Part shown: one piece after another, positions 5,701 to 12,696 of the stretch
Layout of the letters: each line of letters begins with the position of its first letter
Position numbering within the stretch: the first letter of the stretch is position 1
Source of the DNA: an uncultured Blautia sp.
GTDB taxonomy: Bacteria > Bacillota > Clostridia > Lachnospirales > Lachnospiraceae
NCBI GenBank assembly: GCA_945872375.1
Contig: CAMBYR010000002.1
Span: forward strand, 1-33,798
Direction: 5' to 3'
Length of the DNA stretch: 33,798 nt
The notes under the pieces: generated by a model
Seen by the model: only the letters and a program-made list of their open reading frames with translations
Told to the model about the DNA's origin: nothing
Databases searched by the model: none
Made by a program: the position numbers and the translations under genes

Positions 5701-7145
5701 AACAATACTGTAAACTTACCGGAAGCAGAATCCGCGGAGAAAAGCATCAGGTGGAACGGATCTGGAATCATATTCTGGACAGTGAACGGCAGAAGTTTCT
5801 TCTACTGTTTGAAAGAGCATATGAACACAGGGATGAGGGAGCTGAGGATATTCTGCATTATCTCTGTCCGGATGGCAGAGTACTTCTGATTCATTTCAGA
5901 GTGTACTTTTTCAGAGAGCGTGATGACCACAGAAGCTTTTACGGTGTGCTTACCGATGTGACGGCCATGGAGGGAATGAGCCGGAAAAAGAATATTTTAT
6001 CGGAAAAAAGCATGTCCGCAGAGGAACTGGGGATGCTGGGATGGTATTATGACTGCCTGCCCTGTGCCATGGGAATCGGAAAGCTGGAAACAGATGCAGA
6101 TGGAAATCCCTGCGGCTGGACAACGATTTACATCAATGAGGAGGCCGGAAAAAACTATAACGATAATATCAGAACACTGGAAGACAGAGTGTTTGAATTG
6201 TTTTTCGGAGGAAAGGAGAATTTCCTTCAGGAATGTTCTCTGGTGCTTTCGAGGCAGGAATCCAGGAATTATTACGGATACAGCTCTGTAAGCTGCCGCT
6301 ATCTGCATCTGTCCATGTTTCCATGCAGCGATGCTTATGCCGGTGTGCTGGTTCAGGACGGCACACAGATTGCCATCAGCCAGCAGGCGGTTCGAAGCAT
6401 GCTGTGTGCTTTTGGCGAAATATATTTTATCCACCTGGAAGACAATCATTTCCGGATGCTCTATCCGGATCCCAATAATATGCTGGAACGCGGAAATTAT
6501 GAGGAGGCCGTCAACCGGCATTTCCGCACGGGAAAAATCGTTGCCGATGAAAAAAGCAGGGTAAGGAAGGAACTTTCCATTGAATATATCAGGGAAAGCC
6601 TGATGAAGAGCCCGAGCAAGGAAATTATCTATCGAAGAAATACGGGAGAGAACAGGATAGAATGGTGTCGGTCCATCATTACTCCCGGAGAGTGGAAGAA
6701 TGGTGTTCCCGTCACGGCTGTCATGGCGATCAGCAGTGCAGAGCAGTTTGTAAACAGACAGGAAATCATCCGTGTGGGAGATGTGATGCAGCAGCTTTCG
6801 AAGGGCTTCTTTGTATATGAGGCCGCAGCCGGAGAAAAAATACTGTATGCCAACTCCAGTGTGCTGGAACTGTTTGGATGCAGCTCATCAGAAGAATTTC
6901 AGAAGCATGTGAAGGGATCTTTTGCCGGAATGGTTCATCCGGATGATCTGGAACGGGTGGAGAAGGAGATTGAAGAGCAGATTCAGCATTCTGCACAGAA
7001 AATGGATTATATTGAATACCGGATCGTGAGGAAGGATGGAAGCTGTATCTGGGTGGAGGATTACGGACATCGTCATCAGGCTTCGGGATATCGTGACGTA
7101 TTTTATGTGTTCATAGCCAAAGCAGAAGATCAGCACAGAATTTAA
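2769..7145 (+). CDS. Membrane-anchored GGDEF-GGDEF-EAL cyclic di-GMP protein with extracytoplasmic sensor and four C-terminal PAS-like modules
   Basis: 1458 residues. Transmembrane helix at about 12-33, then a roughly 250-residue extracytoplasmic region of Cache type (VSIIDQQGNAVYDDGS, GVPIFQDGTVIGVLGG, MAYRPLGYNEWMIGYAVP), and a second helix at about 287-310. The first GGDEF domain (about 325-485) has DALTGL and intact GGDEF at 402-406. A second domain (about 505-670) has NPLTGL but GGDNF at 580, so it may bind GTP or c-di-GMP without synthesis. The EAL domain (about 690-925) has ECLARW at 704, NVSRIDI, EILES, MDDFGSGYSS, KLD, EGVET and AQGF; the usual phosphodiesterase ligands look present. 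The last 530 residues contain PAS-like modules near 950, 1082, 1211 and 1338; the last is a clear PAS_3 fold with MVHPDDL. Most GGDEF/EAL proteins put sensors upstream of the enzymes, so this trailing array is unusual. Net direction of c-di-GMP turnover is not predictable. Confidence 0.93.
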   Translation: MRRTEQDQYKKYIAIVSIFLLAILCSVLLFFYGMQKRVEQNVADTLEEDLKRQSHHFSTMIEAKYQYLESTADFIGQAEDLFSEKNMELIQSVRVKSDFEYVSIIDQQGNAVYDDGSEKNLSSRRYFKEGISGQRTLSDPLESWVDGKIRVVLGVPIFQDGTVIGVLGGSYDVSALSEILFEDIYDGEGFYGIFMKDGTLVSCSIGMEDSLFAYHAELENDSEDVFGQEMIRQAKDDFTNQRSGFLKLDRAGESYHMAYRPLGYNEWMIGYAVPTKKAEEAYSFIGNYELILSIAIGLIGALMFWATTYINSRRQKELIRYAETDALTGLCNKNNTEERIQKYLSEDEEMRTEIQAFLIMDIDFFKKINDRYGHAAGDEVLRRMGECLGSFFRQDDIIGRIGGDEFVVFMKNLKTPEDAEGKARSLTEKIRSIRVPELQGYGITCSIGMAFYPMHGTSYLELYKHADMALYTTKKKGRNGYSIYRDNLQDVLQGSYVHRAYTEINPLTGLFYNRAFFQKADEYLRTVTETPHVLIAIDIEHFRLFNRHYGREEGDRLLVRISGCLKGLRQDYGGIAGYLGGDNFCIVMPKQETAVEKLQSEVSEIISEWDSSVGFLPAFGIYEVKKASIPAVVMYDRATIALTQIYGNYVNRAQVYDFGMEKKMEEEIALVSDIQTGLANQEFLFYVQPQCNISDGKMRIVGGECLARWEHRGQMISPKVFVPVLEKNGFMAELDRYIWKCACKWLGSWIERGHIPVPISVNVSRIDIFSMDVPEYLKKLIADYRLSPRLLKVEILESAYAEEDERIRKTVKELREAGFSVMMDDFGSGYSSLNMLKNVSVDVLKLDTRFLDFSQMEKKKGMEILESVFSMSRQMGLPIVVEGVETENQEKFLVNMGCRYAQGFYYYSPMPVSEFEKLIADQENLDLNGIMASQVNNPRIRDFLDRDVVSDSMLNHFLGASAFYDVYGSKVEIISVNEQYCKLTGSRIRGEKHQVERIWNHILDSERQKFLLLFERAYEHRDEGAEDILHYLCPDGRVLLIHFRVYFFRERDDHRSFYGVLTDVTAMEGMSRKKNILSEKSMSAEELGMLGWYYDCLPCAMGIGKLETDADGNPCGWTTIYINEEAGKNYNDNIRTLEDRVFELFFGGKENFLQECSLVLSRQESRNYYGYSSVSCRYLHLSMFPCSDAYAGVLVQDGTQIAISQQAVRSMLCAFGEIYFIHLEDNHFRMLYPDPNNMLERGNYEEAVNRHFRTGKIVADEKSRVRKELSIEYIRESLMKSPSKEIIYRRNTGENRIEWCRSIITPGEWKNGVPVTAVMAISSAEQFVNRQEIIRVGDVMQQLSKGFFVYEAAAGEKILYANSSVLELFGCSSSEEFQKHVKGSFAGMVHPDDLERVEKEIEEQIQHSAQKMDYIEYRIVRKDGSCIWVEDYGHRHQASGYRDVFYVFIAKAEDQHRI

Positions 7146-7148
7146 TAT

Positions 7149-7225
7149 AAAAGTCCCGGACAGCAGCCATGTGATGCAGCATGCTTGCATGCGGAGGCAC
7201 ATGGATATTGGACGGGCTAACCTGT
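7149..7225 (+). repeat. 77-bp structured direct repeat, copy 1
   Basis: Matches 7307-7383 at 75 of 77 positions. The unit can fold: CCATGTG pairs with CACATGG, and nested inside GCATG-CTTG-CATGC forms a tight hairpin; AGTCCCG near the start can pair with CGGGCT near the end with one bulged base. Its 3' end (AACCTGTAT, 7219-7227) pairs perfectly with ATACAGGTT at 7258-7266, making a second stem, and GATTGC (7269-7274) pairs with GCAATC (7293-7298). Strand and transcription are unknown. It may be a dispersed repeat or a structured RNA in the tail of the preceding transcript. Confidence 0.85.
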
Positions 7226-7306
7226 ATGAGCAAGCAGGCCAACAGGCCGGATTGCGAATACAGGTTGTGATTGCGGGAGCATGAAATGCGGAGCAATCAA
7301 CTTTTA

Positions 7307-7383
7307 AAAAGTCCCGGATAGCAGCCATGTGATGCAGCATGCTTGCATGCGGAGACACATGGATATTGGACGGGCTAACCTGT
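7307..7383 (+). repeat. 77-bp structured direct repeat, copy 2
   Basis: Second copy, 158 bp after the first, with two substitutions (C to T at 7319, G to A in the GGAGACACATGG segment). Both nested stems are unaffected by the changes. Its end AACCTGT can again pair with a downstream segment (ACGGGTT, 7389-7395, with one G-T pair), so both copies have the same two-hairpin layout although the downstream sequences differ. It lies 29 bp before the -35 box of the SOS-type promoter. Confidence 0.85.
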
Positions 7384-7412
7384 TAGAGACGGGTTCATCC
7401 CTGTTTATGGCC

Positions 7413-7441
7413 TTGACAAATAAGAACATATGTTCTATATT
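7413..7441 (+). promoter_or_regulatory. Sigma-A-type promoter of the radical SAM operon
   Basis: TTGACA (7413-7418), exactly 17 bp, then TATATT (7436-7441). The spacer contains the LexA-type palindrome, so repressor binding would directly block RNA polymerase. The predicted start point is near 7448, giving a leader of about 50 nt. Confidence 0.85.
7424..7435. promoter_or_regulatory. LexA/DinR (SOS) box, perfect palindrome between -35 and -10
   Basis: GAACATATGTTC is a perfect 12-bp palindrome fitting the Gram-positive LexA core GAAC-N4-GTTC. It fills the last 12 bp of the promoter spacer, an ideal repression position. Confidence 0.85.
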
Positions 7442-7455
7442 AGTGTAACCAACAA

Positions 7456-7467
7456 GAACATATGATC
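7456..7467. promoter_or_regulatory. Second, near-match LexA box in the leader
   Basis: GAACATATGATC matches the upstream box at 11 of 12 positions and starts 32 bp after it, about three helical turns, so two LexA dimers could sit on one DNA face. The core is imperfect (GATC in place of GTTC), so it would be the weaker site. Confidence 0.6.
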
Positions 7468-7498
7468 GGATTTGAGCAAGATAAACAGGGAGGGTGCC

Positions 7499-8818
7499 AT
7501 GATCGTACAGGAATCCATGAGTCTCATGCAAAAACTGGAAATATTGTCAGACGCGGCAAAATATGATGTTGCCTGTACCTCAAGTGGAACAGAGCGGAAA
7601 GGTGACGGCACTGGTATCGGAAACAGCATTCAGGCCGGAATTTGTCATAGCTTTGCCGGGGACGGACGTTGTATCAGTCTTTTGAAGGTCCTTTACACCA
7701 ATGAATGTGTCTATGACTGCAAATATTGTATCAACAGGGCGTCGAATGACGTCGTCCGAACAAGCTTTACGCCGGAGGAAATCAGCAGACTCACCATAGA
7801 ATTTTACAGAAGGAATTATATCGAGGGACTGTTTCTGAGTTCCGGCGTAAAAGGCAGCCCGGATGCCACAATGGAAGAAATGATCCGCGCAGTGGAGCTG
7901 CTAAGGACAAAATACCGCTTTCAGGGCTATATTCACATGAAAGCCATCCCGGGAGCGTCGCCGGAGCTGATCGAGCGTGCCGGCTTTCTGGCAGACAGGA
8001 TGAGTATCAATCTGGAGCTTCCCACGGCCGAAGGGCTTCGCAGACTTGCACCGAACAAAACCAGGAAGACGATTCTGAAACCCATGAAGCAGATTCAGGT
8101 TCGTCATATGGAAAACAAACAGGAACTGGTGCTGTACCGCCATGCGCCCAGATTTGTTCCGGCAGGGCAGAGCACCCAGATGATCATTGGAGCAACGGGA
8201 GAAAGCGACTATCAGATCGTTTCCGCGGCGGAGGCCATGTACCAGCAGTATTCTCTGAAACGGGTGTTTTATTCGGCCTTTGTGGCGGTCAATCAGGACA
8301 ATACGCTGCCTGTGCTGCCTCAGGGGCCGCCTCTTCTTCGGGAGCACAGGCTGTACCAGGCAGACTGGCTTCTTCGCTTTTATGGATTCCAGGCATCGGA
8401 GCTTTTGTCCGATGCGCATCCAAATTTTAACCTGCTCCTGGATCCGAAATGTGACTGGGCCGTGAGCCACCTGGAAAATTTTCCTGTGGAGATCAATACG
8501 GCAGATTACCGGACACTTCTTCGGGTTCCCGGTATCGGGGAAAAATCGGCATCCAGGATCCTGGGGGCAAGAAGATACCATTCTCTGGATTTTGAGGATC
8601 TGAAAAAAATAGGTGTGGTTCTGAAGCGGGCACTGTATTTTATTACCTGTCGTGGAAAGATGATGTATCCCATCCGTCTGGAAGAGGACTATATTGTGAG
8701 AAATCTTCTGGATCCTTCCGTTCGGATGCCTGTGCCGGCGTCTGAGGTGACGTACCGGCAGCTCTCTCTGTTTGAAGATCTGGCTCTGGCCGGTCAGAAG
8801 GGAGGGATGGGCGTATGA
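7499..8818 (+). CDS. Putative DNA modification/repair radical SAM protein with C-terminal helix-hairpin-helix (rSAM_link_UDG type)
   Basis: 439 residues. The radical SAM cluster motif CxxxCxxC is at Cys70, Cys74 and Cys77 (ECVYDCKYCINR), so it should bind a [4Fe-4S] cluster and cleave SAM to a radical. A helix-hairpin-helix near residue 331 (VEINTADYRTLLRVPGIGEK) suggests DNA binding. Members of this family are known to occur next to the family represented by the following gene, which in other genomes is often fused to a uracil-DNA-glycosylase-like domain; the reaction is unknown. The ATG at 7499 sits 5 bp after GGGAGG; a TTG at 7472 and an ATG at 7517 are less likely starts. It overlaps the next gene by 4 bp (ATGA), indicating translational coupling. 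The promoter carries LexA boxes, pointing to induction by DNA damage. Confidence 0.88.
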   Translation: MIVQESMSLMQKLEILSDAAKYDVACTSSGTERKGDGTGIGNSIQAGICHSFAGDGRCISLLKVLYTNECVYDCKYCINRASNDVVRTSFTPEEISRLTIEFYRRNYIEGLFLSSGVKGSPDATMEEMIRAVELLRTKYRFQGYIHMKAIPGASPELIERAGFLADRMSINLELPTAEGLRRLAPNKTRKTILKPMKQIQVRHMENKQELVLYRHAPRFVPAGQSTQMIIGATGESDYQIVSAAEAMYQQYSLKRVFYSAFVAVNQDNTLPVLPQGPPLLREHRLYQADWLLRFYGFQASELLSDAHPNFNLLLDPKCDWAVSHLENFPVEINTADYRTLLRVPGIGEKSASRILGARRYHSLDFEDLKKIGVVLKRALYFITCRGKMMYPIRLEEDYIVRNLLDPSVRMPVPASEVTYRQLSLFEDLALAGQKGGMGV

Positions 8819-10293: not shown

Positions 10294-12696
10294 ATGGAAA
10301 AGCCGGTAACAGGTATTTCCGTGAGAAATCTGGTGGAATTCATTCTGCGAAGCGGAGACCTTGACAGCAGACGGGGCTCCATGGATAAAGAGGCCATGCA
10401 GAAGGGAAGCAGGATTCACAGAAAAATACAGAAACAGATGGGGAGTGCCTACCGTGCGGAGGTGTCTCTGAAAAAAGATACAGAATATCCGGATCTGATT
10501 CTCCGGGTGGAAGGACGGGCAGACGGAATCTTTTCGGAAGACGGGAAAGTTTTTATCGATGAAATCAAAGGAATGTACGCCAGACTGGAGCTGATGGAGG
10601 CCCCGGTGGGAGTCCATCGTGCGCAGGCGATGTGCTATGCTCATATCTATGCGGAGCTGGAAGGACTTACGGAAATCGGTGTTCAGATGACGTATGCAAA
10701 TCTGGAAACAGAAGAGATCCGCCGTTTTCGGGAAACATTTTCGGCAGAAGAACTGAAAATCTGGTACAGAGATCTGACAGACGCCTACCATCAATGGGTA
10801 TCCTATCGCCAGGAATGGAGAAAGATCCGCAGAGAATCCATGGAACATCTGGAATTTCCGTTTCCGTACCGGGATGGCCAGAGGAAAATGGTGAGCAGCG
10901 TGTATCATACCATATCGGAAGGAAAGCAGATCTTTATTCAGGCACCTACCGGAGTTGGAAAAACGATGTCCACAGTGTTTCCAGCAGTACGGGCCATCGG
11001 AGAAGGAAAGGGGGAAATGCTGTTTTATCTGACTGCAAAAACGATCACCAGAACGGTGGCTGAAGAAGCATTTTCCATTCTTGCCGGGAATGGACTGAAG
11101 TTTCAGGTGATCACCATTACGGCAAAGGAAAAGCTCTGCTGTCTGGAAAAACCGGAGTGCAGTCCGGAAGCATGCCCACGGGCAGCCGGACATTATGACA
11201 GAGTAAATCAGGCAGTTTATGAATTGTGGACGTCATGTCAGACATTTAACAGAAATGTGATTCTGGAGCATGCGGAGAAATGGCAGGTATGTCCCTTCGA
11301 GATGTGTCTGGACCTTGCCCTGTGGGTGGATGGCGTCATATGCGACTACAATTATGTGTTTGATCCCAATGTTCATCTGAAACGTTTTTTCGGCGACAGT
11401 GTATCAGGAGACTACCTGTTTCTCATCGACGAGGCGCATAATCTGGTGGAACGGGGACGGGAAATGTTCAGTGCATCTCTTTGCCGGGAGGATGTTCTGA
11501 CAGTAAAAAAGAAAGTAAAGGATGCTGCGCCCAGGCTTGCCAGGGTTCTTGGAAAAGTGAACCGGCAGCTTCTGGAGCTTGAGAAGGAATGTGATACCGT
11601 GCAGGTTCTGGAAAATCCCGGGATGCTTCCTTTGAGTCTTTTGACGGTGCAGGGAGAGATGGATGCGTTTTTCGAGGAGCAGACAGGCAGGGAAGTCCCG
11701 GAAGAGGTAATGGACTTTTATTTTTCCGTCAGAGATTTTCTGAATATTGCAGAGCTTCTGGATGAACATTATGTGGTGTATACGGAAAAAGAACCGGGCA
11801 AAAAAATCCGCATGCGTTTATTCTGTGTGAATCCGGCTGCCAATCTGGGAGAAGCTCTGAAAAAGGGAAGGAGTACTGTGTTTTTTTCTGCGACGCTCCT
11901 TCCCATGGAATATTACCGGAAACTGTTAAGCAGCAGAGATGATGACTTTGGAATCTATGTCCTCTCGCCCTTTTCCCGGAAAAAAAGATGCATTCTGACG
12001 GCTGTGGATGTGAGCAGCCGGTATACACGGAGAACTTATGAGGAATATCGGAAAATTGCCAGATATATTGCGGAAATGGCATGGCAGAAAAAGGGAAATT
12101 ACATGGTATTCTTTCCATCTTATAGGCTTATGGAGGATGTCTGGCAGGTCTATGAACAGGAGTTTTCTGTGGACTGGGTCAGATGTATCCGGCAGACTGC
12201 ATCCATGAATGAACAGGAGCGGGAAAGCTTTCTCCGGGAGTTCCGGGAGCAGAAAGAAACACTGTTGGGGTTTTGCGTGCTGGGAGGGATTTTTTCGGAA
12301 GGAATCGATCTGATCGGGGATCGTCTGATCGGTGCGGTGATCGTTGGCACCGGACTGCCTCAGGTGGGCACAGAACGTGAAATCCTGAAAAATTATTATG
12401 ATTCCAGGGGAGAAGATGGATTTGCCTATGCTTACCGGTATCCCGGGATGAACAAGGTCCTTCAGGCGGCCGGACGTGTCATCCGCACAAAAGAGGACGT
12501 GGGGACGATCCTGCTGCTGGATGACCGGTTTGGAAATCCGGAGTACAGAGAGCTGTTTCCTGTGGAATGGCAGGATATGAAAAGATGCCGTCTCAACAGT
12601 GTGAAAGGGCTTCTGGAAGAGTTCTGGGCAGGCATCCCGGAGATCGGAAAACAGAAAAACCCGGAGACCGGAAAACAGAAAAATCTTGACAGATAA
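10294..12696 (+). CDS. Cas4-like nuclease fused to XPD/DinG-type iron-sulfur DNA helicase
   Basis: 800 residues. The N-terminal 190 residues are a PD-(D/E)XK/Cas4-like module: GSRIHRKIQ, VEGRADGIF and VFIDEIKG supply the His, Asp and E-x-K residues, then a Q-containing helix (HRAQAMCYAHIY). The helicase part follows: QAPTGVGKT (Walker A), LTAKTITR, four cysteines around CCLEKPECSPEACP and CPFEMC that would hold the XPD-type [4Fe-4S] cluster, IDEAHN (DEAH box), FFSATLLP, and the motif VI region QAAGRVIRTKED. Such enzymes unwind DNA 5' to 3'; here the fused nuclease could trim the product. ATG 10294 follows AGGAAG; an in-frame ATG at 10234 has no RBS and adds 20 non-conserved residues. The C-terminus carries a 24-bp tandem duplication (12640-12687). 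The substrate in the cell is unknown. Confidence 0.9.
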   Translation: MEKPVTGISVRNLVEFILRSGDLDSRRGSMDKEAMQKGSRIHRKIQKQMGSAYRAEVSLKKDTEYPDLILRVEGRADGIFSEDGKVFIDEIKGMYARLELMEAPVGVHRAQAMCYAHIYAELEGLTEIGVQMTYANLETEEIRRFRETFSAEELKIWYRDLTDAYHQWVSYRQEWRKIRRESMEHLEFPFPYRDGQRKMVSSVYHTISEGKQIFIQAPTGVGKTMSTVFPAVRAIGEGKGEMLFYLTAKTITRTVAEEAFSILAGNGLKFQVITITAKEKLCCLEKPECSPEACPRAAGHYDRVNQAVYELWTSCQTFNRNVILEHAEKWQVCPFEMCLDLALWVDGVICDYNYVFDPNVHLKRFFGDSVSGDYLFLIDEAHNLVERGREMFSASLCREDVLTVKKKVKDAAPRLARVLGKVNRQLLELEKECDTVQVLENPGMLPLSLLTVQGEMDAFFEEQTGREVPEEVMDFYFSVRDFLNIAELLDEHYVVYTEKEPGKKIRMRLFCVNPAANLGEALKKGRSTVFFSATLLPMEYYRKLLSSRDDDFGIYVLSPFSRKKRCILTAVDVSSRYTRRTYEEYRKIARYIAEMAWQKKGNYMVFFPSYRLMEDVWQVYEQEFSVDWVRCIRQTASMNEQERESFLREFREQKETLLGFCVLGGIFSEGIDLIGDRLIGAVIVGTGLPQVGTEREILKNYYDSRGEDGFAYAYRYPGMNKVLQAAGRVIRTKEDVGTILLLDDRFGNPEYRELFPVEWQDMKRCRLNSVKGLLEEFWAGIPEIGKQKNPETGKQKNLDR
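12640..12687 (+). repeat. 24-bp in-frame tandem duplication at the helicase C-terminus
   Basis: Two adjacent 24-bp units encode EIGKQKNP and ETGKQKNL, differing at four bases. The second unit runs directly into the TTGACA of the glmS promoter. Confidence 0.75.

Follow-up and report, generated by a model that had tools for sequence, protein, structure and literature searches.

Described systems and the Clostridiales-1 RNA at the locus

The short non-coding mobile units ERIC, Correia/NEMIS, CIR and YPAL mostly carry terminal inverted repeats (TIRs) and target-site duplications (TSDs), and their transcripts adopt stable folds and sometimes affect the mRNAs of adjacent genes (review PMC2229807). 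In the Bacillus cereus group bcr1 forms dispersed short MITE-like repeats, tens per genome and linked to TTTAT, some of which are transcribed within UTRs (PMC6542083, PMC3446304). Clostridiales-1 (RF01699) has been known since 2010, when Weinberg et al. described it from Clostridiales and the human gut as a probable biological RNA that is not cis-regulatory, and what the main text of that paper gives on Clostridiales-1 includes no mention of mobility, of TIRs and TSDs or of deleted derivatives (PMC2864571). Rfam lists the family as 'Gene; sRNA', its function being unknown, and a literature search on Lachnospiraceae MITEs and on RNA-structured MITEs in Rfam revealed nothing on this family as MITE-like.

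The window, i.e. the whole stretch of 33,798 nucleotides analysed here from an uncultured Blautia sp., contains the two 77-bp direct repeats claimed in the earlier note, at 7149-7225 and 7307-7383, with 75 of 77 positions identical and a start-to-start spacing of 158 bp. Lengthening the alignment to 82 nt gives 95% identity, and this similarity has not arisen by chance. When the region was run against Rfam with cmscan a single match was found there, to RF01699, at 7148-7306 (120.2 bits, E 4.2e-27, with a gathering score of 48 bits), spanning positions 1-166 of the 166 in the model. The two repeats represent a complete and a truncated copy of the Clostridiales-1 RNA, placed head to tail; the spacing equals the length of one complete unit and the second copy begins where the first ends. 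The features are as follows.

7142-7148, + strand: left flank TTAATAT, in agreement with the insertion-site consensus (A/T)TNNTAT preceding family members and overlapping the stop codon of the c-di-GMP gene
7148-7306, + strand: complete Clostridiales-1 RNA (RF01699), B-subtype core (cmscan and fold)
7148-7154 with 7300-7306, + strand: closing stem TAAAAGT/ACTTTTA (Rfam match, fold)
7155-7216, + strand: arm 1, a long hairpin whose GCUUGC loop is conserved (Rfam alignment, minimum-energy fold)
7218-7267, + strand: arm 2, the internal-loop sides AUGAGCA and GCGAAU conserved (Rfam alignment, fold, covariation)
7269-7298, + strand: arm 3, GAUUGCGGGAG...CGGAGCAAUC (Rfam alignment, fold, covariation)
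7307-7388, + strand: second tandem copy, 3'-truncated; it holds just arm 1 and the 5' strand of the closing stem and stops at AACCTGT (7377-7383)
7389-7395, + strand: ACGGGTT, partner for the AACCTGT of the half copy, at the junction with native promoter-proximal sequence (sequence and comparison with relatives)

The minimum-energy fold of 7148-7306 (-72.3 kcal/mol, z -7.1) consists of the closing stem and three arms, and the window copy shares with the described family the whole 166-position model, the closing stem, the three arms and the conserved loops. Beyond what has been described, the window adds a truncated tandem copy, while other copies extend past the 3' end of the RNA. Compared by description only, bcr1 is likewise dispersed, short, MITE-like and present in tens of copies per genome, but it belongs to another bacterial group and has a fixed TTTAT where the A-type copies described below have variable 7-8-mer ATNNTAT duplications. 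ERIC, Correia/NEMIS, CIR and YPAL mostly form one long hairpin, whereas the Clostridiales-1 element has a multi-arm junction with loops conserved across divergent subfamilies, a conservation that was enough for its discovery as a non-coding RNA by comparative genomics.

The second copy lacks arms 2 and 3 and the closing strand, and as it is a 5' fragment no Rfam match was found for it even at E<=1 when 7100-7560 was scanned, nor did the minimum-energy fold of this copy with its flank contain the family structure. Both differences between the repeats are compatible with the stems of the predicted fold, as had been claimed; one is C/T in the stem of arm 1, where the C of the first copy pairs with G and the change yields U-G, and the other is G/A in an unpaired internal loop. 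It had also been noted that each AACCTGT end is followed by a different partner. Pairing can indeed occur at both copies, in the first (7219-7225) with the arm-2 segment 7260-7266 of the Rfam structure and in the second (7377-7383) with 7389-7395, across a 5-nt loop with 7 pairs of which one is G-U. The latter partner nevertheless looks fortuitous, since it spans the junction with the native promoter-proximal motif of the relatives (aligned by eye, TTCGTCCCGTTTTATNNCCTTGAC in relatives and TTCATCCCTGTTTATGGCCTTGAC in the window) and has no counterpart at the equivalent half copy of another array in the host genome (L004). The hint of selection on structure that the earlier note drew from the two copies does not hold, because two changes between recent near-identical duplicates, one truncated and with a seemingly fortuitous partner, carry almost no information.

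Gene neighbourhood and folding of the family as RNA

The element lies 2 nt past the stop codon of the c-di-GMP gene (7143-7145), and any RNA from it would therefore be a read-through 3' tail of the c-di-GMP mRNA; no promoter was found before the element and no terminator in the region. The SOS promoter (TTGACA at 7413, TATATT at 7436-7441) is situated downstream of both copies. When 20 orthologous loci of the SOS-regulated radical-SAM gene of the window were analysed the element was absent from all 20, and for this reason the c-di-GMP gene and the SOS promoter are, judging from these scans, not part of the element. In the relatives the SOS gene has a different upstream neighbour, so that no clean pair of filled and empty sites is available here.

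The promoter region itself contains further conserved sequences. The motif TTCATCCCTGTTTATGGCCTTGACA at 7394-7418, immediately upstream of and reaching into the -35 box of the radical-SAM operon, is conserved in many congeners with the consensus TTCGTCCCGTTTTATNNCCTTGAC (L046, L048, L050, L052, L061, L062, L065) and is a candidate regulator or UP-element site. Two LexA-like boxes, GAACATATGTTC at 7424-7435 and GAACATATGATC at 7456-7467, precede the TIGR03916/TIGR03915 DNA-repair genes and a DinG/Rad3-like helicase, the first box being located inside the 17-nt spacer of the near-consensus promoter.

At the level of the family, covariation supports stems for arms 2 and 3 only. Among 31 diverse copies 94.5% of the cells in these two arms are paired, changes on both sides occur in 22 of 26 pairs, and the covariation score for the same arms and copies is 0.543, compared with 0.08-0.14 for slid controls. 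The counts were made on an RNAalifold model (R1, from a MAFFT alignment) that missed the closing stem and arm 1 and was used solely for arms 2-3. Folding of the + strand gives a structure more stable than that of the complement in 73 of 81 copies, by a mean of 8.8 kcal/mol, and G-U appositions outnumber A-C appositions in arms 2-3 by 20 to 10, both sets being related sequences. Where the flanking ORFs, which were called mechanically, are co-directional, the element points with both in 31 of 41 cases and against them in 10. The strand-biased conserved fold together with the co-directional excess suggests that the fold works, or is at least tolerated, as RNA inside host transcripts.

Ends, target duplications and dispersal

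In the host genome (a 2.0 Mb draft, 73% complete) seven RF01699 copies above the cutoff and several partial ones were found, falling into two subtypes, A and B. The core of the copies of type A, the common subtype, is TGATACC...GGTATCA with a 3' hairpin, and these copies run beyond the RNA to outer ends that form inverted repeats of ~20 bp, GATRCCAGGGTCAAAAGGTC at the 5' end and a ACCTTTTGACCCCAACATC-like sequence at the 3' end. When the TIR pattern was searched in two copy-rich congeners it gave 27+17 and 19+20 matches and none in the reversed control. The A-type TIRs are flanked by target duplications of 7-8 bp with the consensus ATNNTAT, the initial estimate of 5 bp being superseded when the start of the element was set at GAT. 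Comparing the 7 bases before GAT with the 7 after ATC, with partners permuted 10,000 times, perfect duplications were found in 11 of 24 congeneric copies (permuted mean 0.63, max 5) and in 10 of the 18 loci taken from the scan of the whole collection, almost all in other Lachnospiraceae (permuted mean 0.66, max 5); altogether this is 21 of 42 against ~1.3 expected, in two sets that may share a few loci, because the collection includes the congeners as species. By eye, several of the remaining A loci show 8-bp duplications (L221, L224, L318, L112, L083).

Mini elements of 38-48 bp, with little beyond the two ends and still with a TSD, were identified at L139, L141 and L150. These can be explained by deletion between short GGGTCAAAA direct repeats and are for that reason no proof that the core is dispensable for movement; a gapped mini-element pattern gave a single match among 64 congeners. 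Two elements in one congener (L323 and L324 in G075) carry the same terminal repeats (GATGTCGGGGTCAAAAGG...) around GC-rich cores of other kinds, with AATCAAT duplicated over 7 bp at one of them, and their ends may define a MITE superfamily wider than the RNA family; considered as the two ends of one transposon, they proved to be separate short elements as far as examined. At L140 (G013:C120) an A-type 5' end is joined to a B-type 3' hairpin, a chimera that suggests recombination between the subtypes.

The copy in the window is of the B subtype, which has the form TAAAAGTCC...ACTTTTA followed by a 3' hairpin unlike that of A. B copies share the RNA core with A, and their left flank (A/T)TNNTAT resembles the A target, while the right end consists of CCG and then TTTAG and the TIR is weak and gapped. 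The 5' end of B gave 14+15 matches (~25-29) in the host genome compared with 0+1 in the reversed control, most of them deleted derivatives, and the B minis resemble deletions between GCAGNCATGT repeats. Among 21 B copies no excess of TSDs was found (2.81 observed, 2.95 permuted), and as no target duplication is detectable in this subtype the mobility of the window copy is put forward by analogy with A. In one B mini (L175) the two flanks agree over 7 bp, TTACTAT.

Arrays of full and truncated copies recur, among others at L004, where the unit is 193 bp and the second copy likewise ends at AACCTGT, and in the congener G013 at L086, with a second copy truncated just past arm 1, and L090, with two full 171-bp units and a truncated third. 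In these B arrays the final copy lacks its 3' part, the point of truncation differing from array to array.

RF01699 matches range from 0 to 31 per genome among 24 congeners, many of them at contig ends, as expected because repeats break assemblies. With arm 3 as probe, the core pattern was found in at least 119 stretches over 84,980 species genomes, and among the matches listed these are mainly from Lachnospiraceae; a few are assigned no further than to Clostridiaceae, Clostridiales or Eubacteriales or lack a family name. The viral contigs searched gave one match only, L318 (IMGVR_UViG_2876002861_000004, ~12305-12334), an A-type copy on a viral-collection contig with an apparent 8-bp duplication ATTTATAT. 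Short, non-coding, dispersed and variable in copy number, and in the A subtype bounded by TIRs and target duplications, the Clostridiales-1 family is, on this evidence from sequence comparison, a non-autonomous mobile element, dispersed in gut Lachnospiraceae and built around a structured-RNA core. The earlier note had left the choice between a dispersed element and a tandem structured RNA, and each proved right in part, with many copies in the genome and its congeners on one side and an Rfam family with strong covariation on the other; the two outcomes that it had named as speaking against it, no other copies and no covariation, were checked, and copies as well as covariation were found.

Mode of movement and significance

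It is highly probable that 7148-7306 and 7307-7388 are a complete and a truncated copy of a short non-coding MITE-like element with a Clostridiales-1 core. Such elements would be mobilised in trans, by a transposase that acts on their ends, and the B subtype, with its A-like left target and different right end, would probably depend on that enzyme or a relative of it. For the second copy, tandem duplication or a further insertion into the same site, with a subsequent deletion, is the proposed origin. The fold would act in cis within the recipient transcript, here the 3' end of the c-di-GMP mRNA, for example as a stability or insulation element in the manner of ERIC, NEMIS or bcr repeats. A search with the TIR pattern in 38 congeners, the drafts being incomplete, revealed no autonomous parent or transposase with these ends; a 2.4-kb TIR pair resembling an autonomous element (L133 in G013) consisted of a mini element and a separate end. 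Neither IS256-type (PF00872) nor Y1 (PF01797) transposases turned up in the host genome, which is incomplete (73%), and both were rejected as mobilising enzymes on account of their inconsistent presence in copy-rich genomes.

That the RNA is a stand-alone sRNA gene, tandemly duplicated and with a host function such as regulating the neighbouring c-di-GMP or SOS genes, would agree with the Rfam type, with the rating by Weinberg et al. 2010 as probably a biological RNA and not cis-regulatory (PMC2864571) and with the strong covariation. A variation from 0 to 31 copies between congeners, the lack of conservation at the locus and of any fixed neighbour, the TIRs and TSDs and the failure to find a promoter or terminator for the element nevertheless make such a gene improbable. 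Its position upstream of the SOS-regulated radical-SAM/DNA-repair operon, and the fact that some riboswitches are known in tandem (PMC2864571), could instead suggest a cis-acting tandem riboswitch-like leader controlling that operon, but the SOS promoter downstream of both copies places them outside such a leader, the second copy is a truncated half and the element is missing at all 20 orthologous loci scanned, leaving this proposal extremely improbable.

For the MITE-like element itself two further mechanisms were considered. The fixed TTTA left of the element, the TTTA(G) at its right end and the hairpins near both ends might indicate a single-strand (HUH, IS200/IS605-like) mode of movement for the B subtype, one that leaves no target duplication, and it fits this that A and B have only the RNA core in common and that B copies show the left flank TTTAYYAT, the right end CCG-TTTAG and no TSD. 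It is still unlikely, as the host genome, 73% complete, yielded no Y1 transposase, B copies have a left-flank consensus (TTAYTAT) that agrees with the target ATNNTAT of the A type, which does make TSDs, and the B mini L175 carries its 7-bp match on both sides. HEARO RNAs proved to be cofactor or guide-like RNAs for IscB. A comparable role here, in which the RNA of the element is needed for or controls the mobility of itself or of a partner transposon, for instance as a cofactor or guide-like RNA of a trans-acting transposase or nuclease, is considered very improbable; under that reading the 5' end of the element could pair either with the closing stem of the RNA or with the 3' terminal repeat.

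Read as a MITE-like element, Clostridiales-1 belongs with RNA-structured bacterial MITEs such as ERIC, Correia/NEMIS and bcr1. On this evidence an orphan sRNA of Rfam, unknown in function, forms the core of a mobile repeat, one that also breaks assemblies, and the many annotated Clostridiales-1 'genes' in gut Lachnospiraceae would be read as insertions and not as conserved regulators. A complex fold that appears to have been kept through rounds of transposition would then offer a directly testable case.
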